From a virus, in the IMG/VR virus record IMGVR_UViG_3300042010_000231, positions 1 to 47,807 of that record: a DNA stretch of 47,807 bases. One strand, 5' to 3'. Under the pieces are notes generated by a model, which was given only the letters and a program-made list of their open reading frames with translations, was not told the DNA's origin and did no database searches. Below, in pieces: positions 17,042 to 35,171 of this stretch. The stretch's first letter is position 1. The number at the start of each line of letters is the position of its first letter. The position numbers and the translations under genes were made by a program.

Positions 17042-17361
17042 GGTGAAACTCCTAGAGAAAAGGAGCTGCCGCCATTCGCTGCGAAACGAAAAAAGGTGGC
17101 AACTGTACGCGGGTTCGCAGACCAGGACTCTAGGAACCCGGCAGACCCTAAGGCCTCCCACGCACAGCCGCCATGACATGAATGACAGACCTAATGAAGC
17201 GTCTGCTCACGGACGGTAGACGTTGTGCGTCTAGAGTTTACCCGGGCTGCGAAACCCGATCACTGATGGGCAGTGACACGAATCAAGTTACCGAGCGGCC
17301 CCAAGGCGCACAAGCCGGCGGATTCTGGCGCAGCCGTAGGCAACGGCGCAAGGTCTTGTAG
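17042..17361 (-). ncRNA. Structured leader RNA, copy A
   Basis: On the minus strand this runs from GCTACAAGACCTTGCG to the DUF6124 start. Blocks shared with copies B and C include CAGAATCCGC, the hairpin TCACTG/CAGTGA and CGGGTTT..CCCG. A long-range helix can form between GGGTTTCGCAG (opposite 17247-17257) and TCTGCGAACCC (opposite 17111-17121); copy C has different bases in both strands that still pair. No ORF is needed to explain the conservation. It could be a cis-regulatory leader or a separate small RNA. Confidence 0.6.
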
Positions 17362-17643
17362 CTTTCAGGAAGTAACCTACAGAGCTTTTAAACAAGGACT
17401 GTCAGAAGGATGTTGAATCACAGGGCATACGGGTATTACAGGCGATCAAAAGCCTCAAAAAATGTGAGCTGCGATTGCCGCATTTAGGTTGAACGTCGCA
17501 AGTCTCAGTAGCCAAAAGCCACTATTAAGATTTACCTTCCAAGCCATAAAAGCTACGATGCTCACCACTCAAATTTTTTCGATCGGACAGCTGCCTTTAT
17601 TACAAAGTACCTTCCGATACGTATTAACTATCCGAGATCCAGT
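17362..17643. other. Region upstream of the Septu-like ATPase, open in frame
   Basis: No gene with a standard start. From 17512 the reading frame of the ATPase is open for 44 codons without ATG, GTG or TTG and reads like protein (for example KIYLPSHKSYDAHHSNFFDR). An alternative start such as ATT, or loss of the true start, is possible. No clear promoter was seen. Confidence 0.35.
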
Positions 17644-19044
17644 ATGGGGCAGATTAACGAATTTCCATTTGAAAGCAATTTCATACCACTATCCAAAAAA
17701 GGGAAAAGCTCAAAATCCAACACGTTCTCCGTACTCATAGGGAAAAACGGTGTAGGAAAGAGCCGGCTTTTATCAGACATCGCAGAGAACTATTCAAAAA
17801 AAATATTTGAGGAAGATGCTTTCTATTTTGATGATGGGTTCACACCTTCAAAAATTCTCGCAATTTCAACTAGCCCCTTCGACAAATTCCAAACTACAAA
17901 AACAAATATAAAGCAATGGGAAAACCGATATCACTATGTAGGCATGAAAGGCTCACTGGCGTACTCAAACAATGCCATGGCTCTTATATCGTCCGCAGCC
18001 AAAGGCCTTTTAAACAAATGTCTAAAATCAACTAGAACAAATAATCTCGAAGAGCTTTTTAGTCTTTTGCATCTTGAAAAAAACCTAACATTTATTTTTA
18101 AGTTAAATATAAAGCCACACTTAGAAGTAGCGCAAAAGCCATCAGCAAAAAAATATATTCTAGACTATGAGACGACTGGTATTGATTTGTTCAATTACCA
18201 AGGCGCCCCAAGCGACGATGCTTTTAGAGAGCTGCTCGAAGATCGGGCCTATGAGGCATACATAAAGTCGAGCCAGACCGTTAAAAAGGAAATTGCCAAA
18301 TCTCTAACCTATGTGTGGGGGCATTTGGAAACAAAGAAAAACGCATTATTCGGCCTGAATTTTGATTATCGAAATAGATTTTCCAAGGGGTTCCTTGACA
18401 AGGAAATGGTTGAGTCGGTTCTAGCATTGCTCAATTCTGGAATAGTGAGATTGCTTGACTTAAAGCTTCGAAAAATAAAAAACAAAAAAGAAGAGTTTCA
18501 GGAATTATCACTTAGGCGTGCTAGCTCTGGCGAGCAATGCCTTCTAGTTATCATGCTTGGTATTGCAGGGCTAATAGAAGATAATGCTCTAATACTAATT
18601 GATGAGCCAGAAATCAGTTTACACCCTTCATGGCAAGAAAAATTTATGAACTTGCTGATGACCGTTTTTTCTGACTATAACGGATGCCATTTTATTATTG
18701 CAACACACTCACCACAAATAGTATCTCGTCTTGCCGCTGAAAACTGCTTCATTACCATAATGGGCGAAAACAAAATGTACTCAGCATCCGAGTACTTTCA
18801 CAGATCAGCAGATTATCAATTAGCCGAGCTGTTCGACGCCCCTGGAATAATGAATGAATATGTTACGCGATTAGCATTCAATCTTCTCTCAAAGGTAAAA
18901 ACGCATAAAGGTGTCGACTTCAAAGACCAAGCAGAAATGAAAAAGCTAGAAAGCATATTGAATAAACTTGACTCCGAAGACCCTAATTACGAGCTATTGA
19001 CATCCGTAATTGACACATGCGTATTTTTTATGGATAGGGGTTAA
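17644..19044 (+). CDS. AAA+/ABC-type ATPase of a Septu-like defence pair
   Basis: 466 residues. Walker A GKNGVGKS (33-40), an ABC signature-like ASSGEQC (about 293-299), Walker B ALILIDEPE with Asp320/Glu321, and the H-loop IIATHSP near 355. This is the OLD/RecF/PtuA type ATPase. The gene directly downstream, four bases away, encodes an HNH nuclease, which is the PtuA-PtuB arrangement of Septu anti-phage systems. In Septu the ATPase forms a multimeric sensor that holds the nuclease. Unlike the phage core it is AT-rich, so it was acquired. The start at 17644 has a weak ribosome-binding site, and coding-like sequence extends upstream without a start codon. Confidence 0.82.
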   Translation: MGQINEFPFESNFIPLSKKGKSSKSNTFSVLIGKNGVGKSRLLSDIAENYSKKIFEEDAFYFDDGFTPSKILAISTSPFDKFQTTKTNIKQWENRYHYVGMKGSLAYSNNAMALISSAAKGLLNKCLKSTRTNNLEELFSLLHLEKNLTFIFKLNIKPHLEVAQKPSAKKYILDYETTGIDLFNYQGAPSDDAFRELLEDRAYEAYIKSSQTVKKEIAKSLTYVWGHLETKKNALFGLNFDYRNRFSKGFLDKEMVESVLALLNSGIVRLLDLKLRKIKNKKEEFQELSLRRASSGEQCLLVIMLGIAGLIEDNALILIDEPEISLHPSWQEKFMNLLMTVFSDYNGCHFIIATHSPQIVSRLAAENCFITIMGENKMYSASEYFHRSADYQLAELFDAPGIMNEYVTRLAFNLLSKVKTHKGVDFKDQAEMKKLESILNKLDSEDPNYELLTSVIDTCVFFMDRG

Positions 19045-19047
19045 ATA

Positions 19048-19692
19048 ATGCCTCTCATTAGAAATCACTTTGTATACGAAAATGATGAGCTGGCGTTAAT
19101 CAGAGCGAAGAAGCTTGAGGGGTTTACACACCACGACTGGAGTCATGAGACTCTTATGTCATTAAGATCTCGAATTCGAGATTTTTACAGGAGAGAGCAA
19201 AATGGACATTGTGCATACTGCATGCAGACTATATCTCTTCAAGCCGCCGCAAATGCTCAAGTAGAGCACATACTCCCAAAATCAAAACATGAAGCATTCA
19301 TATTTGAAGTAAAAAATCTTTGTGTGATTTGTGCCGACTGCAACCAGGCTAAAGGTGCAAAAAATGCTCTTATTGGCGAGGAGATTGATACTGTCCAGAA
19401 TCTACCCCGCCGTTATCCGACTAGTTCTGCTAGATTTCTGATTATTCATCCTGCCATTGATGTGTATCGCGAGCATATCGCCATCAATGGTAAGATTTAT
19501 ATAGACCTTACTCCAAAGGGGCACTTCACGATAGGGACTTGTAACCTCAATAGATTTACGCAGAAATTTGGCATCGAGCAATCAATGCTTGATGATTACG
19601 GTATATTCCAACTACTTGAAAGTTATTCAAGTGGAGGGGCGCAAGAAAAGCGGAATGCCTTCGAGAGAATTAGAGAGTTGCGCGGAGGGTAA
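19048..19692 (+). CDS. HNH endonuclease of a Septu-like pair
   Basis: 214 residues. Zinc-site cysteines CAYC (55-58) and CADC (95-98) bracket an HNH core with VEHILPKSKH (72-81) and ADCNQAKG (96-103), the pattern of PtuB-like nucleases. It would degrade DNA when released or activated by the ATPase. AGGGG lies seven bases before the ATG. An AT hairpin CAAAAAC/GTTTTTG at 19702-19727 follows and may be a weak terminator. Confidence 0.85.
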   Translation: MPLIRNHFVYENDELALIRAKKLEGFTHHDWSHETLMSLRSRIRDFYRREQNGHCAYCMQTISLQAAANAQVEHILPKSKHEAFIFEVKNLCVICADCNQAKGAKNALIGEEIDTVQNLPRRYPTSSARFLIIHPAIDVYREHIAINGKIYIDLTPKGHFTIGTCNLNRFTQKFGIEQSMLDDYGIFQLLESYSSGGAQEKRNAFERIRELRGG

Positions 19693-19800
19693 AATTTAAA
19701 TCAAAAACATGATTGAATTTGTTTTTGGTACGTGGCCACCTGCCGAGCGACGATACTGCAGAAACTTTCATCATCTAAATAAATATAAGTGCCGAGAGCA

Positions 19801-20664
19801 ATGGACAAAACATTACATACACCTTGGGAGCTCCTTGCCGGAAGTCCAGTATTAGATGCCGTGCTATCAGACTGGACAAATCTTTTAGCGGACAAATCTC
19901 AACTGGAGCTAGCATATCAGACGTTCCTAAAACGTCACGCAGGGATGTTCTTTCCATCTATGCCTTTACATGATGAGATTATTTTGTCAGGTCTCAAGCT
20001 TGGAGCGGACCACGAGGTGGATTTTGTTATGGCTCACAGCGAAAGAAGCTTGGGATTTATTTATACGTTGATTGAGATTGAAACACCGCATGATACTGCT
20101 TTCACAAAAGCTGGTGATCCTAGGGCTCGCCTGAGTCATGCAATTCAACAAACGAATGATTGGAAGTCGTGGTTAGAAGAAAATCGCGATCAGGTTCAAC
20201 GACTGTTCCCCTCTAAGAGGCTGAGAGTGACAGGCAAAACCCACTTTCGCTATATGGTGATCATGGGCAGAAGGTCTGATGAATTCAATGAAAGAAGGAA
20301 TGCGTGGTCCGAAACAACTGGCGTTCAAATTCGGTCTTTTGATTGGTTTACTGATAATCTACTCAACAAGCAATTTCACTCTTTCAATTCGTATGCCTCG
20401 GACATAATTAAGCCGAGTTACGAAGAAGACAATCAGTTCACCAATCCTTTTGCCGTTGCATACACAGATGCCGACTGGCGCAAAATAGTTGATGATCCAA
20501 GGCTAACATTAAGTCATATGGTTGGGCACAACCTAGAAATTTTAGCAAAACACCGTACTTATAATCGTGATCGCTGGAATCCATTTATTGATTATATAAA
20601 CTCACTTCCGGGCAGCCTGCTTTTCCCATCCGAAAGGGAGTATTGGAGAATGAGTCATAGGTGA
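19801..20664 (+). CDS. Shedu-like DUF4263 nuclease
   Basis: 287 residues from the ATG at 19801 (a GTG at 19789 is possible; neither has a strong ribosome-binding site). The DUF4263 domain, a PD-(D/E)xK nuclease used by Shedu defence, shows HEVDFVMA (Asp74), YTLIEIETP (Glu92/Glu94) and a downstream ARLSHAIQQTNDWKSWLEEN helix. In many members the motif is ExK; here it reads ExE-T, a variant I believe also occurs in the family. It stands alone, next to Septu, so it is either a single-gene Shedu or a third element of the island. Confidence 0.75.
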   Translation: MDKTLHTPWELLAGSPVLDAVLSDWTNLLADKSQLELAYQTFLKRHAGMFFPSMPLHDEIILSGLKLGADHEVDFVMAHSERSLGFIYTLIEIETPHDTAFTKAGDPRARLSHAIQQTNDWKSWLEENRDQVQRLFPSKRLRVTGKTHFRYMVIMGRRSDEFNERRNAWSETTGVQIRSFDWFTDNLLNKQFHSFNSYASDIIKPSYEEDNQFTNPFAVAYTDADWRKIVDDPRLTLSHMVGHNLEILAKHRTYNRDRWNPFIDYINSLPGSLLFPSEREYWRMSHR

Positions 20665-20694
20665 TAAGAGCTACGCCGGGCAAAATCGTGGCCT

Positions 20695-20724
20695 GACCCG
20701 ATTTATCCGGACCCGATTTATCCC
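20695..20724. repeat. Two tandem 15-bp repeats
   Basis: GACCCGATTTATCCG and GACCCGATTTATCCC lie head to tail between the Shedu-like gene and the next ORF. They resemble a binding site for a dimeric regulator or a remnant of a larger repeat. No hairpin is formed. Confidence 0.7.
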
Positions 20725-20738
20725 GACTTGGGGCTAGT

Positions 20739-21587
20739 ATGATTTTAGAAGTTATGGTGCAGGCTGTTGATTTTTTACATTCGATACCGGATGTGATTTG
20801 GTCAGGAATCATAGCTTCCGGGCTGACTTTGAGTGGTGTATTAATATCTAACAGGAGCAACACGAAGCGGTTGAGGATGCAGTTAATGCATGATTCTGCC
20901 GAGAAATCACAGGAGCGGATAACAAGTATTCGACGTGAGGTTTATTTGCGCGCAGCGGACGAAGCGCATAAAACAATCAGGCACTTCGTCAATTTACCCT
21001 ACATAAATTTGGCGGAGACGAATCCATCAGAGGAACTTCACGGCTTTTATTCTATATTGTCAAAGCTGAAGCTTGTCGCGGAGCCGAGCACCTTATCTCT
21101 AGTGACTGAGTTGGATGCAGAGTGCAATAGGCTCTTTGTGAGATTGCTGATGGAGGTCCAACCGATACAAGATGCACGTACTAATTTATTAGGATTTGAG
21201 GAGAACCGTGATTTTTTCAATAAGAAGGCGGTAGAAACGTTCGCAGAGATAAAAATCCTCAGCGAAAGTGCTAATCCCGACACCCTACGTTTAGACGCGT
21301 TAATGAAAGATCATAAAAACTATTTGTTGATAGTCGCTGCGCATGAGCAAACCCGAAAAGATCAACAGGAAGAGTTGGATGGTCTTCTCAAGGCGTACAG
21401 TCATGTAATTTATCCTGAGCTGGCGCCATTTGGAAAGCTTTTGATTCAGATAGAAATAGAGATGCGCGGCGAGCTTGGACTGACAACAGATGTTGTTGCC
21501 TATGCAGCGCAAATGGACCGACAACGAGTTGAATTAGGGGATTTGCTCGAAAGAACTCTAGAGTCAATACATTCATCGGATAAATGA
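20739..21587 (+). CDS. Membrane-anchored helical protein, unknown
   Basis: 282 residues. One N-terminal membrane helix (about 18-38, VIWSGIIASGLTLSGVLIS) is followed by a long helical cytoplasmic region with a coiled coil (AEKSQERITSIRREVYLRAA). GGGG lies five bases before the ATG. Proteins with a single TM and helical body are common in defence islands, but I do not recognise the family. It may belong with the Shedu-like gene 74 bp upstream. Confidence 0.7.
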   Translation: MILEVMVQAVDFLHSIPDVIWSGIIASGLTLSGVLISNRSNTKRLRMQLMHDSAEKSQERITSIRREVYLRAADEAHKTIRHFVNLPYINLAETNPSEELHGFYSILSKLKLVAEPSTLSLVTELDAECNRLFVRLLMEVQPIQDARTNLLGFEENRDFFNKKAVETFAEIKILSESANPDTLRLDALMKDHKNYLLIVAAHEQTRKDQQEELDGLLKAYSHVIYPELAPFGKLLIQIEIEMRGELGLTTDVVAYAAQMDRQRVELGDLLERTLESIHSSDK

Positions 21588-21906
21588 CTAGTTTGGAAGG
21601 AATAACGCTCAAAAGTAATGTCTAGTTCGTTTGAGAATGGTGGGGCCTGAATGCTCTATCGGTCGCATTCATTGTGTGTGTAACCTAAAGGAGATTGGAC
21701 CTACGCTCAGACGGCTTAGACGACGCGAAAAAGGGCAAGCTGCGCGTTGGCTCACGGATGAGCAAAGAACACGACGTAAATGCTTTATAAAGCCAGCCAG
21801 CCGCATAGCGCAGCACTGGCTCCCCTCGTCATCACTTCCCATCTCATCTCGCTCATCAAAACCATCACACCCGTCGCGAATCTCGCCTGGCACTCCCACC
21901 CAAACC
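21588..21906. other. Gene-free stretch before the head operon
   Basis: No supported gene. Frames that are open here (for example one running from 21780 into the protease gene) lack protein-like composition and are read through as antisense or out-of-frame of the head genes. It ends at the second late motif. Confidence 0.4.
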
Positions 21907-21927
21907 CTTTAAACGCGATTAAAAGCC
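21907..21927 (+). promoter_or_regulatory. Late-promoter motif, copy 2
   Basis: CTTTAAACGCGATTAAAAGC differs from the other three copies at two positions. It lies 54 bp before the phage protease start and would drive the protease-capsid-tail tube unit, the counterpart of the I promoter of Mu. Confidence 0.6.
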
Positions 21928-21981
21928 CCATCCCAACCAAAACTTCAAGCTCTGCACATTCCCTCTATGCAGCGCACCGCC

Positions 21982-23001
21982 ATGAAACCCCTCCACATCT
22001 TCAAACCCGGCACCCACACCGCCATGTGCGGCACCAGCTTCAACTTCACCGAATCCGACCTAACCGCCACCGTCGCCGCCTACAACCCATCGCTCCACGA
22101 AGCCCCCATGGTCATCGGCCACCCCCAGCACGACGCCCCAGCCGCCGGCTGGATCAAATCCCTGTCATCCACCGCCCAAGGCCTGATCGCCGAGTCCCAG
22201 CAAGTCGACGCCACCTTCGCCGAGCAAATCGCCAAAGGCAGCTACAAAAAAATCTCCGCCTCCTTCTACCACCCAGACGCCGCCAACAACCCCGTGCCCG
22301 GCGTCTACTACCTGCGCCATGTCGGCTTCCTCGGCGCCCAGCCGCCATCAGTGAAAGGCCTACGCCCCATCGAACTGGCCGACGACGAACAAGGCGTCAT
22401 CCAGTTCAGCGACCACGGCCACTACCTCAGCGCCGACCTCTGGCGCCGCTTCCGCGAATGGCTCATCGGCCAGTTCAACAAAGACACCGCCGACCAGGTC
22501 GCCCCGTCGTGGGCCATCGACAGCCTCGCCGAAACCGCCCGCCAGCCAGAACAGCCCCTGCAGACCGCCTTCTCAGAACCCACCCAAACCCCACAGGTCA
22601 CCCACATGCCCGAGCAAGACACCGCCGCCCTAGAGGCAGAAAACAAACGCCTGAAAGCAGACATCGCCCTGCGTGATAACGCGGCTCGCATGGCGGCGCA
22701 AAGCGCCATCCACACCGCCAGCGTCGACTACGCCGAGAAGCTGGTAGCGGCAGGCATGAAGCCCGTTCACGCACCAGCAGTCATCGCTGCACTGGACTAC
22801 GCCGAGTCCAGTCAATCGCCGTTGGAATTCGGCGAAGACGACGCCCGTCAGCCCTTGAGCGAAGGCCTCAAAGCCATCTTCAAAGACCTGGCCGGCGGCA
22901 TCAGCTTCGCCGAAGTCGCCACCAAATCCCGCGCTGACGACACCACCAAACCAGCCACCAACCCATTACTCGCCGACGCCGAAGCCCGCGCCCAACGATA
23001 G
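21982..23001 (+). CDS. Prohead protease with C-terminal scaffold (Mu gpI-like)
   Basis: 339 residues starting MKPLHIFKPGTHTAMCG. The N-terminal 150 residues match the Mu gpI type: FTESDLTATVAAYNP, APMVIGHPQHDAPAAGWI, and IAKGSYKKISASFYHPD, whose Ser is the likely nucleophile. The C-terminal part from about 205 is acidic and helical (EAENKRLKADIALRDNAARM) and fits a scaffold that is cleaved off. ATG at 21967 is an alternative start, in the same frame; neither has a convincing ribosome-binding site. It is the first gene of the late unit after the cargo block. Confidence 0.88.
   Translation: MKPLHIFKPGTHTAMCGTSFNFTESDLTATVAAYNPSLHEAPMVIGHPQHDAPAAGWIKSLSSTAQGLIAESQQVDATFAEQIAKGSYKKISASFYHPDAANNPVPGVYYLRHVGFLGAQPPSVKGLRPIELADDEQGVIQFSDHGHYLSADLWRRFREWLIGQFNKDTADQVAPSWAIDSLAETARQPEQPLQTAFSEPTQTPQVTHMPEQDTAALEAENKRLKADIALRDNAARMAAQSAIHTASVDYAEKLVAAGMKPVHAPAVIAALDYAESSQSPLEFGEDDARQPLSEGLKAIFKDLAGGISFAEVATKSRADDTTKPATNPLLADAEARAQR
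22606..23001 (+). CDS. Nested scaffold protein (internal start in protease gene)
   Basis: An in-frame ATG at 22606, preceded by AGGTCACCCAC, would give 131 residues starting MPEQDTAALEAENKRLKADI. Mu makes its scaffold (gpZ) from an internal start in gene I, and lambda does so in gene C. The start context here is plausible but not strong. Confidence 0.45.
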   Translation: MPEQDTAALEAENKRLKADIALRDNAARMAAQSAIHTASVDYAEKLVAAGMKPVHAPAVIAALDYAESSQSPLEFGEDDARQPLSEGLKAIFKDLAGGISFAEVATKSRADDTTKPATNPLLADAEARAQR

Positions 23002-23009
23002 GAACCCCC

Positions 23010-23378
23010 ATGGCCACCTTCACCCAACCCAACGACCTGGGCGACTTACTGCTGGTCGAAGTCAGCCCAGGCTGGACCCGTTCCAAGGCCACGCTGCTGG
23101 CCGGCACCGACTACCCATTGGGCCAAGTGCTGGCCAAAGTCGCCGGCAAATACCAACAGCTCGATCCAGCAGGCACCGGCGCCGCCAAGAAAGCCGCCGC
23201 CGTACTGGCCGAACCCATCGACGCCACCGCAGGCGACCAGCCAGGCGTCGTCATCGCCCGCGGCGCCGTCTTGGCCCTGACCGAACTTGCGTGGCCCGCC
23301 GGCATCACCGAAGCCCAAAAAACCACCGCCCTCGACGAACTCAACACCTTGGGCATCGTCGCCCGCGCCACCCTTTAA
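23010..23378 (+). CDS. Head decoration protein (lambda gpD-like)
   Basis: 122 residues. The HDPD pattern is visible: RSKATLLAGTDYPLGQVLAK, then PIDATAGDQPGVVIARGAVL. It would bind the capsid surface as trimers and stabilise the expanded head. AGGAACCCCC precedes the ATG. Lambda-type D and E proteins are not what Mu uses, so the head is a recombinant module. Confidence 0.88.
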   Translation: MATFTQPNDLGDLLLVEVSPGWTRSKATLLAGTDYPLGQVLAKVAGKYQQLDPAGTGAAKKAAAVLAEPIDATAGDQPGVVIARGAVLALTELAWPAGITEAQKTTALDELNTLGIVARATL

Positions 23379-23391
23379 TCCGGAGCCCACC

Positions 23392-24372
23392 ATGAACCTG
23401 CAAGACCTGTTCAGCGTCGCCAACCTCACCGCCGCCGTGAACAAACTCCCGGTCATGCCCGGCAAGGTCGGCGCCATGGGGCTGTTCGACGAAAAAGGCG
23501 TCACCAGCACCACTGTCATCATCGACGAGCGCGAAGGCCGTCTGGTGCTCGTGCCCAACACCTCGCGCAACGACGACCCGGCGCCCATCAAAGGCAACAA
23601 ACGCAAACGCCGCACCTTCGAAACCCTGCACCTGCCCATCAACCGGCCGCTGCTGCCCAGCCAGTTGCAAGGCATCGCCGCGTTCGGCCAGGAAAGCGCC
23701 ACCACGCCTATCGCCACCGTCATCAACGACCATCTGCAAGACCTCAAAAACAGCATCGAAGCCACCCGTGAGTTTCAGCGTGTCGGCGCCTTGCGCGGCA
23801 AGTTGCTCGACGCCGACGGCGAGACCATGTTCGACCTCTATAAGGAGTTCGAAGTCAGCCAAAAGAAAATGACCGTCGCCCTCAGCGCCGCAGGCACTAA
23901 CGTGCGCAAAGCCTGCCTCGACGCCAAACGCCATTCAGAATCCAAGCTCGGCGGCGTGATGGTCACCGGCTTCCGCGCACTGTGCGGGCCGGACTGGTTC
24001 GACGCCTTCACCGACCACGCCAACGTCAAAGCCGCCTTCGCCAACTACCAGGAAGCCCAAGACCGACTCGGCGGCGACATGCGCACCGGCTTCACCTTCG
24101 GCGGCATCGAATTCATCGAATACGACGTCACCGTCAGCGGTCAGCGCTTCATTCCGGCAGACATCGCCCAGGTCTTTCCCATGGCCCGCGGCGTGTTCCG
24201 CCTGTTCAACGCCCCGGCCAACTACAACGAAACCGTCAACACCCTGGGCCAGCCGTTCTACAGCAAGGCCGAGCCGCGCAAGATGGGCAAAGGCTGGGAC
24301 CTCGAAGCCCAAGCCAACCCGTTGGCCATGTGCTTGTTCCCCGAAGCCCTGGTCGAGCTGAAGGTGGGTTGA
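23392..24372 (+). CDS. Major capsid protein (lambda gpE family)
   Basis: 326 residues starting MNLQDLFSVANLTAAVNKLP. Gp E family segments: MPGKVGAMGLFDEKGVTSTT, RKRRTFETLHLPINRPLLPS, FRALCGPDWFDAFTDHANVK and the C-terminal NPLAMCLFPEALVELKVG. HK97-fold shell subunit, expected to assemble with the decoration protein upstream. CGGAG lies six bases before the ATG at 23392; the frame is open upstream but the match to the family begins here. Confidence 0.9.
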   Translation: MNLQDLFSVANLTAAVNKLPVMPGKVGAMGLFDEKGVTSTTVIIDEREGRLVLVPNTSRNDDPAPIKGNKRKRRTFETLHLPINRPLLPSQLQGIAAFGQESATTPIATVINDHLQDLKNSIEATREFQRVGALRGKLLDADGETMFDLYKEFEVSQKKMTVALSAAGTNVRKACLDAKRHSESKLGGVMVTGFRALCGPDWFDAFTDHANVKAAFANYQEAQDRLGGDMRTGFTFGGIEFIEYDVTVSGQRFIPADIAQVFPMARGVFRLFNAPANYNETVNTLGQPFYSKAEPRKMGKGWDLEAQANPLAMCLFPEALVELKVG

Positions 24373-24375
24373 CCC

Positions 24376-24807
24376 ATGCGCTACTGCACCCGCGCCGACC
24401 TCGGCAACGCCATTCCACAGATCACACTGATTCAACTCTCCAACGACGACCCGGCCGCCTCGCAGCCCAACGAAAGCGTCATCGACGACGGCGTGCGCCA
24501 CGCGCAAGAACTGGTCGATGGCTACCTGCGCGGGCGCTACCACCTGCCACTCGACCCGGTACCCACCATGTTGCGTGATGCCGTGGTCTACCTGGCGCGG
24601 CACTGGCTGTATCAGCGTCGCCCCGAAGGCGCATTGCCCGATGCTGTAAAGGACAGCCGCAAAGACACTCTCAAGCTCTTGGAAAACATCCGCGACGGCG
24701 TTGTCACTTTAGGCCTGCCCACCGGCCACGCCGCGCCGGAACCGGGGGAGATCCGCGTGCGCTCACGCCCTCAGCAATTCAGCGCCCAAACGTGGGAACG
24801 CTACTGA
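24376..24807 (+). CDS. DUF1320 head-tail connector (Mu gp36-like)
   Basis: 143 residues starting MRYCTRADLGNAIPQI. DUF1320 members have the same opening and the segment VRHAQELVDGYLRGRYHLPL (about 39-58) and YLARHWLYQRRPEG. It probably forms the adaptor ring below the portal. It starts three bases after the capsid gene and overlaps the next gene. Confidence 0.85.
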   Translation: MRYCTRADLGNAIPQITLIQLSNDDPAASQPNESVIDDGVRHAQELVDGYLRGRYHLPLDPVPTMLRDAVVYLARHWLYQRRPEGALPDAVKDSRKDTLKLLENIRDGVVTLGLPTGHAAPEPGEIRVRSRPQQFSAQTWERY

Positions 24808-27518: not shown

Positions 27519-27597
27519 GCTCAGGCATAGACAAGGCAAATAACCAACTCGAAGCACCATCTGCTGGCACTTGAGTTAAGCCTAAAACCGTGGATGG

Positions 27598-28368
27598 TTA
27601 GGCATTCTTCAAGAACGCAGCAATTTCTACCTCTTTGGCCTTGGAGAACACCCAGCCTCCTAGTGTGTTATTCCATCGCCCACCAAGATCCTTCAGTTGA
27701 TCTTTCAACTTCTTCGTATCGCCTTTGACAACAAATGACTTCACTTGGCCGTCCTTTTCGTAGTCCTCCATGAAGACCTTGTCTTCTTTGAGAATCTTTT
27801 TCAGGGTCGCGACCTTTTCCTTGACCTCTTTGGGCGTTGGAGGCACGGCTGGTAGTCCGCGAAGCAACCCACGAACATTTATTGAAATTTGGTTGAGAAG
27901 CTGTTCCTTGAAATCTGTGATGCTATTGTAGGATCCAGTCAAACCCAATTTCTGCATCTTTTTCTCGAATTCTTTCAACGACTTATACTGATCAATGTCC
28001 AGGTTTTTAGGGTCGATGTTTCGAGATGAAAAATAGACCATTACCGGCTTTTGGTTTTCGATGAACCATTCGATCTCTTCTGCTGTGCCACTCTCGCTGA
28101 CTCCGGTAGGTGAGCCAAGTCTTGTCCAGAAAACACCGATGACCATGTCGCAGGTAGTAACGATTTGACTGTTGATAACCCCTTGAGCACGATCCCCTAG
28201 CAGTGGTGCCGAGTGCGTTTCCCATTTCACAGGAAGGAGCACCACATTATTCGTCTGAGCATTGTTATTGTTCCAACGAGAGATAACCTCTGGTATTGCC
28301 TCACGTTCTTCGTCAACGTCGCCAGGGCTTGCGATTAGTATTTTGAACACCTTTGCATCGAAGGACAT
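27598..28368 (-). CDS. TIR/DUF4062-like effector domain protein
   Basis: 256 residues. The N-terminal 130 residues have the pattern of DUF4062-like, TIR-related Rossmann domains: KILIASPGDVDEEREAIPEV, LLPVKWETHSAPLLGDRAQG, CDMVIGVFWTRLGSPTGV and SGTAEEIEWFIENQKPVMVY. Such domains recur as effectors or sensors in bacterial conflict systems. The C-terminal 50 residues (FVVKGDTKKLKDQLKDLGGR, then WNNTLGGWVF) form a small domain also seen attached to nucleic-acid enzymes. It is divergent from the CHAT gene, with 638 bp between. Family naming is from memory; the catalytic Glu is tentatively in EEIEW. Confidence 0.7.
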   Translation of the reverse strand: MSFDAKVFKILIASPGDVDEEREAIPEVISRWNNNNAQTNNVVLLPVKWETHSAPLLGDRAQGVINSQIVTTCDMVIGVFWTRLGSPTGVSESGTAEEIEWFIENQKPVMVYFSSRNIDPKNLDIDQYKSLKEFEKKMQKLGLTGSYNSITDFKEQLLNQISINVRGLLRGLPAVPPTPKEVKEKVATLKKILKEDKVFMEDYEKDGQVKSFVVKGDTKKLKDQLKDLGGRWNNTLGGWVFSKAKEVEIAAFLKNA

Positions 28369-29006
28369 TTTTTCTCTCTTTAATTGCAGGATGCGGATGA
28401 GGAGTGCCCAACTAAAAATAGGCCCTAAGTGTTACCCAACACCTTGATTGGGTCGGTAGAACACACTCCGGTGGCAACACCCTCCACGGCTCTGGAGTAG
28501 GCTGTCAACGAAGGGAGAACGTTCTGATACAGCTGTCGAGGATAATGCGGGGCGCATAGGAAACACAATCAGCATTGCTACCGTAATTCCTCATACGAAA
28601 GATAGGTCAAGCCGAATGCAAATGACAGAACAAACGCTATGCAAACGGCTAATCAAGTGGTATTTAGCCTTCACAATCGCCATGCCGCTAGTCTTTATAA
28701 CCATAGTCAGCACCCATTTAAGCTGGGCTTATGCACGTTGCGGTGCCCCTCTTTCAACATCCCTACATTCCCGGCACTAGAGACTCACGGGCTTGGCCCA
28801 ATAACTTTTGCTACTCACCTCCCGTGCAGACACTGAAATCAACGCAACCGCGGTGACGCCTGCAGCGATGGTCAAGAGTTCGAAGAGAACCTGGTGAAAT
28901 GTTTGAGGCGTGGAGATCGGCGCTATCGTGTTTTTTGCTACTAATTTAGCGAGTCGAGACTTGACCCGCAGGTCAGTAACCATCTCATCAGTAAAAGGAA
29001 AGTCGT
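28369..29006. other. Divergent intergenic region between DUF4062-like and CHAT genes
   Basis: 638 bp with no certain gene. A small plus-strand frame at 28639-28836 has no protein-like features. A minus-strand frame at 28777-28983 is hydrophobic in part and is listed separately. Promoters for both effectors should lie here; I see no operator dyad. AAGGAAAG precedes the CHAT start. Confidence 0.4.
28777..28983 (-). CDS. Possible small membrane protein beside CHAT
   Basis: 68 residues with one hydrophobic stretch (about 34-52, LFELLTIAAGVTAVALISVS) after a basic N-terminus (MVTDLRVKSRLAKLVAKN). It starts 23 bp from, and divergent to, the CHAT start. The ribosome-binding site is weak. It could be a real membrane partner or chance. 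Confidence 0.3.
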   Translation of the reverse strand: MVTDLRVKSRLAKLVAKNTIAPISTPQTFHQVLFELLTIAAGVTAVALISVSAREVSSKSYWAKPVSL

Positions 29007-32000
29007 ATGGTTGACACGGAACCGCAGTCCACGCCAGCTGTTGTTGGATTTGATCCTTGGTCAGTTTTAGCCGAAATCACACTGGGTAGCATGGGGCTAT
29101 TGCTAGGCGGGATCTCGAGTAAGGTTCTCGGACGACTGCTTAACAAAAGCCTCGGCTTGCGATACGCCGAGACGAGCAATGAGGTCTTTACAGGCTTTAC
29201 TGTCGTCCTCCCTCCGAAAGGTGCTACCGCCCTCAGCGAACAGACGGTCTTCAATGCGTTATCCGCTGCTTTCATGGAGCTTGACGGCATCGAGCTTAAA
29301 GATACGCACTTGGCCAAATTTCGTAGTTCCATTGAAGTAGTGCACTCACCCTCACTTCAGATCCCTGATCTGGTAGCTGTAGTGAATATTGTGGGACGCA
29401 ACCACTTCATTTTTGTCGCCGAAGCTGGCAAGTACAGATCCAATGATGTGCATCTTCCACCAATCTTTGGGGTGTCTGCCGTACGTTCACCCGAAGGTAT
29501 CTGGGTGCGACATGTCGCAATCTTGGGGCAAAAACTCGTGTCCGCCGCCCAATCAGGTGAGGGTTACGTCTTTGTACATGTCACTGAAGCGCCACCGCAG
29601 AGGGTTGAAGCCCAAGCCCTATTACAAGAGATCGACTGCGACATCTGGCATGCCGAAATTGAGGGTGGTAACCGGGAACAAGAAGTCAGTCGTAATGCTG
29701 AGAGATGGGTAAAGATGGCTGTTTTGGGGTTGATCGATGAAATCCGAGATGAAATCGAAGCGCTGGCGCTAGATGACCTCACAAAAAAGCATCTACTTGC
29801 CCAGTTACTTGATCGCTCAGGCAAAGAGGATGAACTCCTTTCGGTTATTGGCGAAATGTTGGGTAGTGTTGCGGCACTGACAGCAATGCAAAGAATCCAG
29901 CTTTCTACTTTTGCTATCAAAGCAGGAAGCCTCACCACTGCAATGGATTTACTCGCTGAGGGGGTAGAGGGTCTTACTGAGGAAGAATGGTTTGAGAAGG
30001 CGTTGGATGTGGCAATGCGGCTGCGCTCCAACGACCTCATCGTTAAAATTGACGAGCAGATGTCCTCTCTGTTTCCAGCTTCAGCGATATTAAGGGAAAA
30101 TCGCGATAGGCGATTGCTTCTAAACTGTCACTTGGCATCCAGCAAGGAATTTGAGTTCTCAATTTCTGGCTTTTCAGATAGGCATGAACTCCTTTGGGCG
30201 GGACTCAAAGGGGCGGACGCTGTGTACGACCAAGTTCTTCGGATGACTTCTAAGTGGGAAACAGATTGGCAGGAGCTGGCATCAATCTGCTGCGCAGCAC
30301 ATGCTCAATCGATCGGTAAAAATCGAGATGCAGTAGAAATGGCGGTTTCTGTGGCCACTTCGAAGACGTATGGACGGCAAGCTTCCCGGATACTCCTGTC
30401 TTCTGTTCGACGCATGATGCTCAAGCAAGAAGTAGCCTCTAGTGAAAGCGATTACTATCGACAACCTTTGGCGGCAGTGATCAGATATTTGGCTCAACAC
30501 CCCCAAGATGAGCAAACACGAACCTCACTTACTTCACTCTTAACAGTGGAAGCATGCGGTGAGATCGCCGTTCCTGTGGCTGCAATTCTTGCACTAGATT
30601 TGGCTAGTGAAGGTGTACGACTCGCTAAGCCCCTATTTTTAAAAAGTGATAAGGAAGAATCGCGCCAGAGCACTTCAGAGTATTTGCCGAGCCCTCCTGA
30701 GTTCGAACGGGTAAAATATGACGCGGAATTTAAGCTAGTAGTGGAGTCCGGTCTACGATGGCTTAGTCAACAGCTGGCAACAGAGCCGGGAGTAACCCGC
30801 CTACCGGTTGAGCTAGTGGGAGTTGATCCGAATAACATCGTTCATCAACTAGTGAGCCTCATCCATCATAACGGCTCACATGGGCCAGAAGACACCGACC
30901 TCGAATTCCTAGAGAAAATGGTCCAATTGACGTGCGCAATTGCGCCATACGCAGACAATGAGCGCAATGGAGACCTTAGTGTAATGCGTCTCCTCGCCTG
31001 TCAGTCCGTGTTATGCGGTTCTGCACAGCACGCACGAAATCTTTGCGAACAGATTCTGTTGATGGGCCAAGAAAGCCCTCTTAGGAAACGACTTGCTTGG
31101 GCGGCGTTTGCGGATGTTTATCACCGCTGTCGCAAGCCAGTCGAGGCACTGATCGGTGTAGCTTGTGCTATGGCTACGGATTCTGAGGTCGGAGCTGCCG
31201 ATCTTTGGCAGGAAATTCATACCCTGATTCGTGTGTTGCGGGATCTTGGACAGATTTCATTGGCTCGAAAGCTAATACCCGTTATGAAGCAACTCCTTGA
31301 GCAACTCGGGTATGATCCTGAAAGCGATCTGCGCGTGATCACGTTGGAACTGAGCCTCCAACTGTTTGAAGTGCGTGACACACAGATTGCCGAGCTTAGT
31401 AATTTGGCCGAGACCATGGCCTCCAATTGCGAAGCTGTTCTCGAGCGCCCCAACTATCTGGTGCCTGCTGTGACGCTATTGGCCCAGATTGTGTTGAAGT
31501 GTGACTCCGTTGCTGCGCCAGTCAATGATCACTCTCGAAAAATTTTAGCTACGGCATTGACGCGTATTGGGGCAGATCTCGCTCAATTTGTGTCGACTGT
31601 TTCCTCTATTTCGCCGACACCTGCTCACGTCCTCGCAATGTACAACAAAGTCCATAGAGCAGTTTCGACAAGGGATGCTCCAGCAGACTTTGTTCCCGTT
31701 ACGATTGCAGCGCGGCGACTTTTAGATGGAACGAAAGATAAGCCCCCAGAGCCCGAGGTTTCATCCCTTGCAACGGAAATACTGGCGGAGCAAGGAGTTG
31801 AGCTGGTCGGTGATCTACCGTTGCTTACTTTCGGCTGGCCATTGGCATATGCACAAGAGCTCAGCCGTAGCGGTTTAGAGGTGGTTTTTCTTTCATTGAA
31901 CAGCCAGGGAGAGCTGTTAGTCACGCACGTGGTTCAAGGTGAGGTTCATCAGATTGAACAACTCCAAGGTGACAGATCGTTTCTCAAACGGATGCAAGTG

Positions 32001-32861
32001 TGGATCGAGGACTATCCAAAGGGATATGGACTCGTTGACGCGTGCGACGGAAATGATGAGTTCTATGACTCAATGGAAAGGCTTGGTGCAAAGGTTGCCT
32101 CGGAGGGGGAGCTGTTAATAATCGCCGAGCCGATGCTACAGCAACTTGCGATGAATCTTATAGTGGTAGAGCCGCTTGTGGGCTTTAGTTATTTTCTAGG
32201 CTCGAAGGCTGCTGTCGGCGCCACCCCTTCACTAAGGTGGTTATCTCAAGTGCGGGGAAGCGCCCGTAAGGGGCGTGGAGGTTACAAGGCGTGGATCTCC
32301 GCAGAGGAAAGCTCGTTCGATGGGGGAGCCTTAGGCTTAGTCTTGGATCGCCTTAAAGACACGTTCGCCCAGTATGACTTTGCTGTCGACACCGGGCGCA
32401 AGCTACCGCTTGATGTCTCGGATGCAAGCCTGGTGGTTGCCTGTGCTCACGGAGGGTTGACCAGTAGCGGCAAATTCATCCACACCATTAGCGACGAAGA
32501 TAATCTAGTCGAATCTCCCGGAGCACTTGCCCAAGCCTTAAGAGGGGTGGAGTTAGTGATTCTGTTCGTTTGCAGCGGCGGTCGTCTCGACAAACATCCC
32601 TTCGATAACTCTACGGTTGGACTACCTAAACAGTTGCTAAATCAGGGCTGTCGAGCTGTTGTGGCGTCCCCATGGCCGCTCGATGTCAAGGTTACTTACA
32701 ACTGGCTCGGCCCGTTCATGCAGGCTTGGGAAGCCGGCGAAACAGTTTTGAGCGCGACCAAAATGGCGAATGATGCGGTTACTTTGAGTTTGGGAGACCA
32801 CCCACAGTACGGCTTGGCAATGGCTGTCTATGGCGACGTGTTGCTGAACAAGCAAACGTAG
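29007..32861 (+). CDS. Membrane CHAT-domain caspase-like protease
   Basis: 1284 residues. An N-terminal hydrophobic segment (about 20-38, VLAEITLGSMGLLLGGISS) could anchor it. A region to about 230 follows, then roughly 700 residues of helical repeats that look TPR/ARM-like (for example ARNLCEQILLMGQESPLRKR, ARKLIPVMKQLLEQLGY). The C-terminal CHAT domain (about 950-1284) has the dyad His1148 in VVACAHGG and Cys1189 in LFVCSGG, then LLNQGCRAVVASPWPLD, all classic for CHAT. CHAT proteases act in type III CRISPR (Craspase) and gasdermin or TPR-CHAT defence. Here it lies beside a TIR-like protein in phage cargo. GC is lower than the core. AAGGAAAG precedes the ATG. Confidence 0.88.
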   Translation: MVDTEPQSTPAVVGFDPWSVLAEITLGSMGLLLGGISSKVLGRLLNKSLGLRYAETSNEVFTGFTVVLPPKGATALSEQTVFNALSAAFMELDGIELKDTHLAKFRSSIEVVHSPSLQIPDLVAVVNIVGRNHFIFVAEAGKYRSNDVHLPPIFGVSAVRSPEGIWVRHVAILGQKLVSAAQSGEGYVFVHVTEAPPQRVEAQALLQEIDCDIWHAEIEGGNREQEVSRNAERWVKMAVLGLIDEIRDEIEALALDDLTKKHLLAQLLDRSGKEDELLSVIGEMLGSVAALTAMQRIQLSTFAIKAGSLTTAMDLLAEGVEGLTEEEWFEKALDVAMRLRSNDLIVKIDEQMSSLFPASAILRENRDRRLLLNCHLASSKEFEFSISGFSDRHELLWAGLKGADAVYDQVLRMTSKWETDWQELASICCAAHAQSIGKNRDAVEMAVSVATSKTYGRQASRILLSSVRRMMLKQEVASSESDYYRQPLAAVIRYLAQHPQDEQTRTSLTSLLTVEACGEIAVPVAAILALDLASEGVRLAKPLFLKSDKEESRQSTSEYLPSPPEFERVKYDAEFKLVVESGLRWLSQQLATEPGVTRLPVELVGVDPNNIVHQLVSLIHHNGSHGPEDTDLEFLEKMVQLTCAIAPYADNERNGDLSVMRLLACQSVLCGSAQHARNLCEQILLMGQESPLRKRLAWAAFADVYHRCRKPVEALIGVACAMATDSEVGAADLWQEIHTLIRVLRDLGQISLARKLIPVMKQLLEQLGYDPESDLRVITLELSLQLFEVRDTQIAELSNLAETMASNCEAVLERPNYLVPAVTLLAQIVLKCDSVAAPVNDHSRKILATALTRIGADLAQFVSTVSSISPTPAHVLAMYNKVHRAVSTRDAPADFVPVTIAARRLLDGTKDKPPEPEVSSLATEILAEQGVELVGDLPLLTFGWPLAYAQELSRSGLEVVFLSLNSQGELLVTHVVQGEVHQIEQLQGDRSFLKRMQVWIEDYPKGYGLVDACDGNDEFYDSMERLGAKVASEGELLIIAEPMLQQLAMNLIVVEPLVGFSYFLGSKAAVGATPSLRWLSQVRGSARKGRGGYKAWISAEESSFDGGALGLVLDRLKDTFAQYDFAVDTGRKLPLDVSDASLVVACAHGGLTSSGKFIHTISDEDNLVESPGALAQALRGVELVILFVCSGGRLDKHPFDNSTVGLPKQLLNQGCRAVVASPWPLDVKVTYNWLGPFMQAWEAGETVLSATKMANDAVTLSLGDHPQYGLAMAVYGDVLLNKQT

Positions 32862-32898
32862 GGCGCGTGTTCAATGACACTCAGTGTGACCTCATGAG

Positions 32899-33176
32899 GG
32901 CTACAACACCTATCGTCATTGCCTACGGTGGCGACAGAATCGGCCGGCAGACGCACCACGTCGCCGCCGGTAAATTGTCTCCCGTCACCACTCACAGTGA
33001 CCGGGCGGAGCAGCCCGTAGCACGTTAAGTTGTACGCGTATCTTTTGTAAGGGACAGGCAGCTCCATGTCTGATTTTGATGGTAACTGTACGCCGGGTGC
33101 CCTCGGGCAAACCGGCATTGCAAAGCTCCTACTCGCTCCCATTACCGGCGTACAGTTACCATCTTTTTTTCACCCC
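32899..33176 (+). ncRNA. Structured leader RNA, copy B
   Basis: Downstream of the CHAT gene, this copy has GGCTACAACACC, CCTACGGTGGCGACAGAATC, the hairpin GTCAC/GTGAC with a different loop, and CGGGC..GCCCGTAGCA, aligned in order with copies A and C. Its 3' part is replaced by a long hairpin and T tract (33078-33170). No DUF6124 gene follows; the next gene encodes a lipoprotein. Confidence 0.55.
33078..33170 (+). terminator. Long-armed inverted repeat with T tract in copy B
   Basis: The arms GATGGTAACTGTACGCCGG (33078-33096) and its exact complement (33145-33163) are 19 bp and perfect, with a 48-base insert, followed by seven Ts. It reads as a strong intrinsic terminator or as a stable structured RNA end. 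The arms contain a minor internal stem (GTGCCCTCGGGC). Confidence 0.65.
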
Positions 33177-33330
33177 CGCACGGCTCCATTCAAAGGGAGC
33201 GCCGTAGCGATCAGCGTCGTCCCCATCAGCCGGTGACCAATCCGGCATCCGCCTACCAAAACTCTTCAAAAGCACCACGTCGCCACGCGAGTCCGGCAGG
33301 TTTAAAGCGGCCAGCGGGTAAGGTCGCGCC

Positions 33331-33400
33331 CCCGGAAAAATGTCGGACGCATCCTCGATCTTTGGAAACTTTCACGCGTTTAACGCACGCGTTTTAGGCG
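33331..33400. repeat. 70-bp direct repeat, copy 1
   Basis: Runs from CCCGGAAAAATGTCGGACGC to about GCGTTTTAGGCGC, with the core TTTCACGCGTTTAACG. The second copy is at 34771 in the same orientation, about three quarters identical by eye. The copies flank the lipoprotein and toxin-antitoxin genes. Confidence 0.65.
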
Positions 33401-33495
33401 CTCATTCTCGCGTACGCATTGCAGCCACGAACAACTCAGCTTGACTGGGAAGACCCGTGCTACCTTCCAGTCTCATTCATGACAAGGAGGTCGCC

Positions 33496-34089
33496 ATGCG
33501 CACCCTTTATATCCCTATCATCCTGGCGGCAACTTTTTTGGCATCTGGTTGTAGCATCAAGCAAACCGTGACGCCTGCTGAGCTGTCTTCCGAGATGACG
33601 CCAGAGATCTGTCTGATCCCCGCCGAAGGACTGCGAGAGGGATTCAACACGGTCTATGAAAACCTGCTCAAAAGCAAAGGATTCCAGACGCGTCAGCTTC
33701 CGCCAGGCAGCAGCCCGTCCAGCTGTCCTCTTTCGACGACGTATATCGGTACCTGGTCGTGGGACCTAGCTATTTACATGAGCTATGCAGATATCCGCGT
33801 TTATCAGTACGGCCAGCAGGTGGGCCAAGCGGAATATGACTCGCGTTGGGGTGGCGGTCGGGTCATTGATAAATTCATTATTGCTGAGAAAAAAATCACA
33901 GAGCTCACCAATCAGCTGTTTCCAAACGGTGCTGCAGGCTTAAAGGGAGTTCAGGAGTCAAACTCCGGGACCGCTGCCGCACTCATGACAAAAGACGCTT
34001 ACCAACAGCGGCAGCTCAAGCAGCTTGAACAGCAGGGCCTCCCCTATGAGGAGTACCAGAAGCGCTACAAGCTGATCATGGCTGACTAG
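33496..34089 (+). CDS. Sbal_3080-type lipoprotein
   Basis: 197 residues from the ATG at 33496, with AAGGAGG at seven bases. Signal peptide MRTLYIPIILAATFLASGC with lipobox LASGC, cleavage before Cys19. The mature part has SIKQTV, ICLIPAEGLREGFNTVYENL, TTYIGTWSWDLAIYMSYADI and YDSRWGGGRVIDKFI, the pattern of the Sbal_3080 lipoprotein family. The role is not known; as prophage cargo an outer-envelope lipoprotein may alter phage adsorption (superinfection exclusion), which is only a guess. Confidence 0.85.
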   Translation: MRTLYIPIILAATFLASGCSIKQTVTPAELSSEMTPEICLIPAEGLREGFNTVYENLLKSKGFQTRQLPPGSSPSSCPLSTTYIGTWSWDLAIYMSYADIRVYQYGQQVGQAEYDSRWGGGRVIDKFIIAEKKITELTNQLFPNGAAGLKGVQESNSGTAAALMTKDAYQQRQLKQLEQQGLPYEEYQKRYKLIMAD

Positions 34090-34166
34090 GCTCAGTTGAG
34101 GGGCGTTCTCTGCCGGTCATGTCCACGAAGCATGCTGGTCAAATCCGATGCAAATGACGGGTCGAG

Positions 34167-34436
34167 TCAGGGGTATTCCTGCCTGGCATGTAAAACGGTC
34201 ACGATCTCGATTCGATCCGTCACCCGGTAGACCACCAAGTAATTGGGGTGCACAACAATTTCCCGCGTACCGGGTACACGGCCAAATCGATAAAGGTAGG
34301 GATGTTGCGGAAGGGCTGAAGTCGCAGCCTCAATAGCCTGGTACAGCTCGGTCGCCGCTACAAGGTGGCGGTCGCCGATATAATCAATGATTTGCCACAG
34401 TTCAGTCCGCGCTTCGGGCCGCCACTCAACCAGCAT
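34167..34436 (-). CDS. RelE/ParE-family toxin
   Basis: 89 residues: VEWRPEARTELWQIIDYIGD, ALPQHPYLYRFGRVPGTREI and a C-terminal VVYRVTDRIEIVTVLHARQE, the standard ParE/RelE layout with the C-terminal Arg. Would inhibit gyrase (ParE) or cleave mRNA on the ribosome (RelE); which one cannot be told. The start overlaps the antitoxin by 11 bp. Confidence 0.88.
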   Translation of the reverse strand: MLVEWRPEARTELWQIIDYIGDRHLVAATELYQAIEAATSALPQHPYLYRFGRVPGTREIVVHPNYLVVYRVTDRIEIVTVLHARQEYP

Positions 34437-34617
34437 CGCGCTTATTGCGCTTGGCTTCGAGAAGGGATCGCATATCAGCCATTACCTGATCATGCGGGAC
34501 ATTCGGGCGTGGATCATCGAGCGACGCCTGTACTTTGGCACGGAACCAACGGTCGTAGCTGGCGGCCTGCTCTTCGGTTTCAAACTCTGAAACGATGGGG
34601 GAAAGTTCGGCGCTCAT
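34426..34617 (-). CDS. Antitoxin, stability-determinant type
   Basis: 63 residues from the ATG at 34617 with CGGAGG six bases upstream. MSAELSPIVSEFETEEQAAS followed by YDRWFRAKVQASLDDPRPNV matches the 'stability determinant' antitoxins paired with ParE/RelE toxins. It is first in the operon, as usual, and would bind toxin and its own promoter. Confidence 0.85.
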   Translation of the reverse strand: MSAELSPIVSEFETEEQAASYDRWFRAKVQASLDDPRPNVPHDQVMADMRSLLEAKRNKRDAG

Positions 34618-34770
34618 AGTGACCTCCGGGATCAATACCTAGCAGTCTAATCGGTATGTGGCTCACTGTCGTGGGTGTCAGGATGAAGTGCACCCAGCCA
34701 AGCACCGCCTGGCTCCATCGCTCTAGCTGATGGGAACAACCACACTAAACCTCTCGCTGGCGACAGCCAA

Positions 34771-34838
34771 CCCCTAAAAAATGCCAGACGCCTCCTCGAT
34801 TTCTTGAACGCTTTCACGCGTTTAACGTAAGCGTTTAA
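34771..34838. repeat. 70-bp direct repeat, copy 2
   Basis: Second copy of the repeat at 33331; core TTTCACGCGTTTAACG is identical. It ends about 20 bp before leader copy C. Confidence 0.65.
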
Positions 34839-34856
34839 GGACACCCGCTGTTACGT

Positions 34857-35171
34857 CCTAACGGCTACAACGCCTTGCGTCGTTACCTACGCGTGCGCCA
34901 GAATCCGCTGGCTTGTGCGCCTGTGGGGCGGGCTATATCGTTTCCCTGTCACTGAAAAACAGTGATCGGGTTTGGTAGACCCGTAGCATCGACGCATAGC
35001 GTCACCTTTGGCGGTCCTTTCTCAGGGCTGCGGTATCATGGTGGCCATGCGTAGGGCTCCTCCGGGGGCGCCGGTTCCGATGCCCGGTCTACCAACCTCC
35101 GTATGGCCGCCACCCTCCGTTTGGTAGCGAGATGGTGATGGCTCCAATTAAGTAGCATCGGAGTTTCATCT
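34857..35171 (+). ncRNA. Structured leader RNA, copy C
   Basis: GGCTACAACGCCTTGCG through the hairpin TCACTG-AAAAA-CAGTGA, then GGGTTTGGTAGACCC (34968-34982), whose partner GGTCTACCAACC lies at 35086-35097, giving a long-range helix of about 12 bp across some 105 bases. The 3' end has CACCC..GATGGCTCC and CGGAGTTTCATCT before the DUF6124 start, as in copies A and D. Confidence 0.62.

Follow-up and report, generated by a model that had tools for sequence, protein, structure and literature searches.

The IMG/VR virus record IMGVR_UViG_3300042010_000231 contains four related elements, described in the original prediction as copies of one structured leader RNA, and two of them, copies A and C, are very probably C4 antisense RNA units of the phage P1/P7 immI type. 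The analysed stretch is 47,807 nucleotides long and is called the window below. Copy A lies at 17361-17042 on the minus strand, copy B at 32899-33176 and copy C at 34857-35171; all three were recovered at the places first proposed. At Rfam's own thresholds the window gives two matches, both to the C4 antisense RNA (RF01695) and both over the full C4 model: 76.6 bits in copy A (17178-17092, minus) and 70.8 bits in copy C (35034-35117, plus), with a cut-off of 45. With laxer thresholds the family c4-a1b1 (RF03163) is found upstream of each C4, at 37.3 bits (E 1e-7) in A and 41.8 bits (E 1.5e-8) in C, both below its cut-off of 46.7. The same a1b1 parts resemble isrK (RF01394) weakly, with 21.4 and 23.5 bits and E about 0.03, and do not reach its cut-off of 50 bits.

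According to the original prediction no described RNA family has these features, and an Rfam match was named there as the finding that would speak against newness. Such matches exist for A and C: RF01695 covers their 3' half above the cut-off and RF03163 is significant upstream of it, which rules out a new RNA family for these two copies. Both families are tabulated in Weinberg et al. 2010 (PMC2864571).

The leaders of A and C share one plan: an upstream block, a promoter-like pair, a hairpin, the first target (a1, b1), the C4 RNA with its antisense strands b' and a', the second target (a2, b2) with b2 over the Shine-Dalgarno sequence, and the ATG. The features are as follows.

17281-17363, minus strand: copy A upstream block and promoter-like region, from the alignment, with a -35-like CTTGTG at 17314-17309 and a -10-like TAACTT at 17290-17285
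17239-17290, minus strand: copy A c4-a1b1 target hairpins (RF03163), a1 at 17257-17247, b1 at 17237-17231 extending just past the match
17092-17178, minus strand: copy A C4 antisense RNA (RF01695), b' at 17137-17126, a' at 17120-17112
17049-17088, minus strand: copy A second target, a2 at 17088-17077, b2 at 17057-17050 over the Shine-Dalgarno sequence at 17053-17049
16682-17041, minus strand: DUF6124 gene behind copy A (PF19619, E 8.1e-18)
34863-34941, plus strand: copy C upstream block and promoter-like region, CTTGTG at 34912-34917, TATCGT at 34936-34941
34935-34987, plus strand: copy C c4-a1b1 target hairpins (RF03163), a1 at 34968-34978, b1 at 34986-34991 extending just past the match
35034-35117, plus strand: copy C C4 antisense RNA (RF01695), b' at 35075-35083, a' at 35089-35097
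35118-35163, plus strand: copy C second target, a2 at 35118-35129, b2 at 35155-35162 over the Shine-Dalgarno sequence at 35160-35163
35172-35540, plus strand: DUF6124 gene behind copy C (PF19619, E 2.5e-18)

The common order of blocks, the exact pairing strands and the DUF6124 genes behind A and C had all been seen correctly before, and the two genes score 64.5 and 66.2 bits, above the Pfam cut-off of 27. The long-range helix noted earlier is the C4 a' strand facing the upstream target a1; that description lacked a2/b2, the targets downstream, as well as the other pairing, b1:b'. In phage P1 the C4 RNA has two targets, a1b1 and a2b2, and Rfam's label agrees with this scheme. The plan also holds for the alignable DUF6124 leaders of 54 viral-contig loci and of Pseudomonas genomes, among the best 80 of 380 relatives.

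The structure of the A/C-type RNA is under compensatory change. In 31 distinct leaders, 98.1% of the cells in the C4 helices and the 5' hairpin are paired, and 79 cells differ on both sides of a pair, against 23.2 +/- 4.2 after shuffling (reached in 0 of 500 shuffles) and at most 10 when the partner is slid by 1-3 columns. The nine pairs of a1:a' form in 99.6% of the cells; 33 cells are changed on both sides, where shuffling gives 8.1 +/- 2.3 (0 of 500), and there is no such cell in any of the six versions slid by 1-3 columns. The slid control, unlike the shuffles, keeps the relatedness of the leaders. Further pair types are not clearly more numerous than in the shuffles, which reached the observed number in 42 of 500 cases for C4 with the hairpin and in 414 of 500 for a1:a' (9 types). 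There are nine a' types, each with one matching a1 type. The pairing of the C4 helices and of a1:a' argues that the conservation is due to RNA and not to coding, and the claim of a structured RNA with compensatory changes holds.

The antisense strands fit the targets of their own leader. For the energies, 119 of 135 leaders could be parsed (the other 16 were left out), and merging those with the same a' and b' left 70 distinct leaders. The mean duplex energy of b':b1 is -10.2 kcal/mol for cognate pairs and -5.6 for reassigned ones, and for b':b2 it is -12.9 and -6.6. For a' the cognate means are -15.9 (a1) and -10.8 kcal/mol (a2), compared with -10.7 and -8.9 when the targets come from leaders with another a' core. 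In each of the four pairings the cognate mean was reached by none of 2000 reassignments. Copies A and C follow this pattern, with b':b2 at -13.0 and a':a2 at -10.9 kcal/mol in A, and -13.9 and -9.7 in C. The C4 of A pairs with its own a2b2 at -22.8 kcal/mol and with that of C at -15.1, while the C4 of C reaches -21.3 on its own and -8.9 on that of A. For 60 C4 copies of two Pseudomonas genomes, with strands set by fixed offsets, the cognate energies also beat the reassigned ones (0 of 5000 permutations).

From this layout we propose the following mechanism. A single transcript would carry, in order, the a1/b1 target, the C4 hairpin with b' and a', the a2/b2 target over the ribosome-binding site and the DUF6124 gene. 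C4 would most likely be released from this transcript, and the freed RNA would pair with a2/b2 and block the access of ribosomes. DUF6124 would then be made only when C4 is scarce or when a1/b1, acting as a decoy, titrates it. The original prediction had suggested a cis-regulatory leader or a trans-acting small RNA; both come near the mark for a C4-type RNA.

The first 60 bp or so of the copies, GGCTACA..CCTTGCGCC..CCTAC..CAGAATCCGCC, form the shared upstream block, which runs into the -35/-10-like pair. It is among the best conserved parts of the leader, with a ten-column mean of up to 1.75 bits, and has no Rfam match. RNAalifold on 26 rows gave three pairs in it, none changed on both sides, and this absence of compensatory pairs speaks against its being a part of the RNA. 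CTTGTG or a variant, followed after 17-19 bases by TANNNT, occurs in 63 of the 70 distinct leaders, by a pattern fitted beforehand to observed leaders and without a shuffled control. Since covariation is lacking and a promoter-like pair stands at its end, the block is probably promoter and operator DNA. Other C4 subgroups seem, by eye, to have other upstream blocks.

Several results weigh against the P1-type assignment or against a strict form of it. The c4-a1b1 scores of A and C stay under the Rfam cut-off, and a strict scan of 32850-35250 for sigma-70 consensus promoters gave none. Among leaders that share an a' core, a' pairs as well with the targets of the others as with its own (a1 -16.1 against -15.9 for the own target; a2 -10.8 kcal/mol), so that a' would identify the type, and b' would distinguish the copy. 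Of the 70 leaders, only 26 have their cognate b1 as the best of all b1 targets and 38 their cognate b2; the cognate ranks among the best 5% for 51 and 55 leaders. In the two genomes, 11 of 18 and 17 of 42 copies pair best with their own downstream target, and 13 of 18 and 26 of 42 with their own upstream target, so the preference is not exclusive; with both genomes pooled, this is so for 20 of 60 copies downstream and 31 of 60 upstream. These counts do not support strict orthogonality between C4 copies. A fair statement from the sequences is that the copies appear to have private antisense codes with likely cross-talk.

The pairing energies also bear on how C4 would act. It could, in the manner of the phage P4 CI RNA, mainly end transcription early by binding a1/b1 or a2/b2 instead of blocking the ribosome-binding site. 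As told in PMC4825925, the P4 CI RNA is a leader-encoded antisense RNA with an upstream and a downstream target and acts by termination on seqA and seqC; our comparison with it is by description only, and this mode of action is where P4 would differ from the units studied here. In the window a1b1 is indeed the stronger partner of C4, as such a mechanism might have it: its duplex with C4 has -34.7 kcal/mol in A and -29.9 in C, and that of a2b2 has -22.8 and -21.3. However, the b':b2 duplex overlaps a Shine-Dalgarno-like motif in 64 of the 70 leaders, an overlap that termination alone would not need, and we regard early termination as the main mode of action as unlikely.

A switch working only in cis, in which a1 and a' pair within one molecule and alternative structures form without a free antisense RNA, is less probable still. 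Such pairing is possible in these leaders, and alternative structures exist in the long IsrK transcript described in PMC4825925. On the other hand, the match to the same antisense strands is kept at both target sites, and the P1 member of the C4 family is a small antisense RNA (PMC12197685). The P1-type reading is the best supported, and blocking of translation is more likely than termination.

The C4 antisense switch was first seen in phage P1, as a lysogeny switch (P1 background in PMC12197685, PMC8198154 and PMC8201110). The P1 C4 targets a ribosome-binding site (PMC12197685), and the immI operon of P1 and P7 is c4-icd-ant (PMC8198154). The units A and C agree with immI in that C4 lies in the leader with targets on both sides, including the ribosome-binding site, and with P1-type C4 in that the antisense strands are complementary to a1/b1 upstream and a2/b2 downstream. 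They differ in the gene behind, which is DUF6124 and not icd or ant; in the Pseudomonas survey described below, a Bro-N gene follows 1 of 60 loci. The likeness to the Rfam families extends to sequence and structure over the full C4 model with a1b1 upstream, whereas a1b1 stays below the curated cut-off and copy B is too diverged. With the isrK-orf45-anrP locus of Salmonella Gifsy-1 the units share the weak resemblance of a1b1 to isrK, at scores far below the cut-off. IsrK ends at a terminator (PMC4825925), but between a1b1 and C4 none was identified here.

Copy B has the following parts.

32899-33074, plus strand: copy B 5' part, with upstream block, promoter-like region, a GTCACC..GTGAC hairpin and the a1-like hairpin CCGGGCGGAGCAGCCCG
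33075-33173, plus strand: copy B 3' part, a C4-like hairpin whose outer stem has 19 bp, followed by a T run

Its 5' blocks are those of a copy of the same type, as first described; the 3' half has diverged, matches C4 at 35.2 bits, under the RF01695 cut-off of 45, and has no DUF6124 open reading frame (ORF) behind it. The C4-like hairpin folds with a z-score of -7.19. With blastn, copy B was found in 27 other loci after setting aside seven rows (ordinary DUF6124 leaders or unrelated), and some of these are probably the same phage from two collections. For the alignment of 25 rows, out of 28 references, we omitted L063, L089 and L073, apparently the same as L011, L021 and L016. In this alignment the two helices are paired in 88.0% of the cells; 22 cells are changed on both sides, where shuffling gives 9.4 +/- 3.1 (0 of 500) and slid versions at most 5; the pairs with double changes (5) and the further pair types (17) are not above the shuffles, of which 155 and 422 of 500 reach them. 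We read copy B as an RNA that appears to be under constraint, a diverged relative of C4.

The antisense-like strand of copy B pairs about equally with a2b2 of A (-18.5 kcal/mol) and of C (-19.7). In L007-L011 copy B ends near the start of the copy C unit; in the window the gap is about 1.4 kb and holds an ORF with no Pfam match and a ParE-family gene. We take copy B to be a C4-like orphan from the same lineage of phages, with a possible role as a partner in trans. The score of copy B under the C4 cut-off, together with the lack of an Rfam match for the upstream block, is what speaks for the earlier idea of an undescribed family. Since Rfam families cover both RNA halves of A and C, with C4 above its cut-off, and the upstream block shows no covariation, that idea is refuted for A and C and can hardly be right.

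Near the C4 units, cargo-like genes occur in the window at 14649-15959, 17644-19692 and 27598-34436, encoding a subtilase, an AAA ATPase with HNH, a CHAT protein and a member of the ParE toxin family; a DUF4062-like gene is also among them, with a score below the cut-off.

C4 units are frequent in Pseudomonas. All nine genomes reached through DUF6124 loci, and so picked for holding DUF6124, contain C4, with 18-43 matches per genome. In an even sample of the genus, C4 is present in 138 of 149 genomes; up to 27 candidates were scored per genome, so the counts are lower bounds. In this sample 34 genomes have at least 27 candidates and ten have a single match. In a class sample with up to 22 candidates scored per genome, C4 occurs in 7 of 185 genomes; one of these is the Pseudomonas centre, and six more have 1 to 3 matches each. 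DUF6124 was found in 6 of 119 genomes of a family sample and in 1 of 143 of a class sample, again the centre, and DUF3077 in 45 of 59 genomes of a genus sample.

For two of the genomes we examined the genes behind 60 of 61 C4 loci, leaving out one weak C4 of the 43 in G003. DUF6124 or DUF3077 follows in 48 of the 60. DUF6124, found with a hidden Markov model built in this analysis, accounts for 41, three of them at odd distances of 13, 72 and 206 nt and perhaps decayed or misframed. All 16 non-DUF6124 proteins were run against Pfam: DUF3077 stands behind seven C4 loci, Bro-N behind one and proteins of 90-107 aa with no Pfam family above the cut-off behind eight; three loci have no recognisable gene behind them. 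Bro-N is an antirepressor-like domain. One C4 (L187, 5001-5087 minus, 84.9 bits) precedes a Bro-N domain gene at 4423-4950 minus, the setting closest to that of the P1 antirepressor.

DUF6124 and DUF3077 appear related, as hhalign gives a probability of 79% and E 1.5e-5; it links neither of them to the unnamed 90-107 aa proteins. AlphaFold2 models of DUF6124 (predicted local distance difference test, pLDDT, 74.9) and DUF3077 (81.2) gave no PDB match at E <= 0.001. The median ratio of nonsynonymous to synonymous substitution rates (dN/dS) of DUF6124 is 0.34 over 3759 non-independent pairs with 0.15 < dS < 1.2, which suggests purifying selection. One alignment of the analysis omitted L049, for which a stop codon was reported, and L052. 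In the chromosomal host unit L186 a 38-codon ORF (4837-4953 minus) begins 47 nt after C4 and overlaps the start of DUF3077 by four bases (ATGA), suggesting translational coupling. This arrangement is reminiscent of the orf45-anrP coupling in Gifsy-1 (PMC4825925).

Among 308 pairwise alignments through C4 between different loci of the two genomes, the longest (5.5 and 4.4 kb) are both between genomes and run deep into the flanks, and the next is 0.9 kb. Between copy A and five phage relatives the similarity lies almost wholly within about 0.7 kb. The scan of neighbour proteins covered 52 of 60 upstream, with eight omitted (one of them a repeat), and 56 of 59 downstream, with three repeats omitted. 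Each Pfam family turned up in three of them at most, and the families among the 25 shown per list are mostly ordinary chromosomal ones. PADLOC on the 56 downstream neighbours gave one match (mad2). With similarity mostly confined to the unit and with mostly ordinary chromosomal neighbours, the C4 units give the impression of cassettes scattered over chromosomes and prophages alike.

By eye, palindromes of the GTGGGAGCGGGCTTGCTCGCGAAG type, which we take to be REP-like, are present near the edges of many of 15 units inspected, e.g. L188, L205, L210 and L215. Both strands of L187:8973-9066 show a likeness to a microRNA precursor model, far under its cut-off, and this may be a palindromic repeat. 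Two further settings were observed. In Pseudomonas phage DVM-2008 (L004) a C4 at 2662-2748 (78.7 bits) precedes a DUF6124 gene at 2795-3148 (E 1.4e-31) beside prtR. On a Pseudomonas monteilii plasmid (L005:2975-3164) c4-a1b1 (46.4 bits) and C4 (75.2 bits) lie near ABC transporter genes.

Copy D concerns the edges of the window.

1-127, plus strand: copy D, host flank broken by the prophage, in which the C4 3' end (1-36) is followed by the beginning of a short ORF with its ATG at 84
47120-47511, plus strand: the other host flank, with the second CTACG (47120-47124) and the DUF3077 gene at 47182-47511

Between them lies a prophage gene set with a transposase (phrog_310), a DNA transposition protein, terminase, portal, tail sheath, tape measure and baseplate, and we call the prophage Mu-like from these predicted genes. 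CTACG at 123-127 recurs at 47120-47124, a five-base repeat at both prophage edges. Copy D was placed correctly at 1-83, but it is not a full copy: the C4 remnant, truncated at its 5' end, is the last 36 bases (model positions 52-87; 19.3 bits, E 0.58), followed by the short-ORF start. Its connection with a DUF3077 locus stands, as the gene at 47182-47511 is PF11275 with E 1.3e-24. The locus L186 holds both flank parts side by side, as compared by eye, which points to copy D being host and not phage DNA and to the prophage lying inside a host C4-DUF3077 unit. On this reading, based on the sequence and this one related locus, copy D would be a host unit broken by the Mu-like prophage.

In the open-access papers searched, with supplements outside the search, we found no account of C4 multiplicity in Pseudomonas or of a link of C4 to DUF6124 or DUF3077, and for DUF3077 we found a frameshift in a pseudogene mentioned in PMC9630843, a paper according to which P. 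putida KT2440 carries a DUF3077 pseudogene. The authors of Weinberg et al. 2010 may have noted Pseudomonas copies in their supplement. Given this literature, the RNA family is known, and the gene setting and the scale are new.

A wider interpretation, possible but doubtful, is that C4-DUF6124/DUF3077 units are genus-wide dispersed cassettes of Pseudomonas with their own antisense codes. The RNA would silence a small, possibly toxic or antirepressor-like protein in a module resembling a type I toxin-antitoxin system or one for prophage control, and orphan C4s such as copy B would act across copies.

An RNA type of phage immunity thus stands mostly before related small proteins in two Pseudomonas genomes, beyond its role in lysogeny. 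If expression is confirmed, the units would offer a first way into the function of DUF6124 and DUF3077, and they would form a natural set of parallel antisense codes in one cell, for the evolution of specificity and cross-talk.

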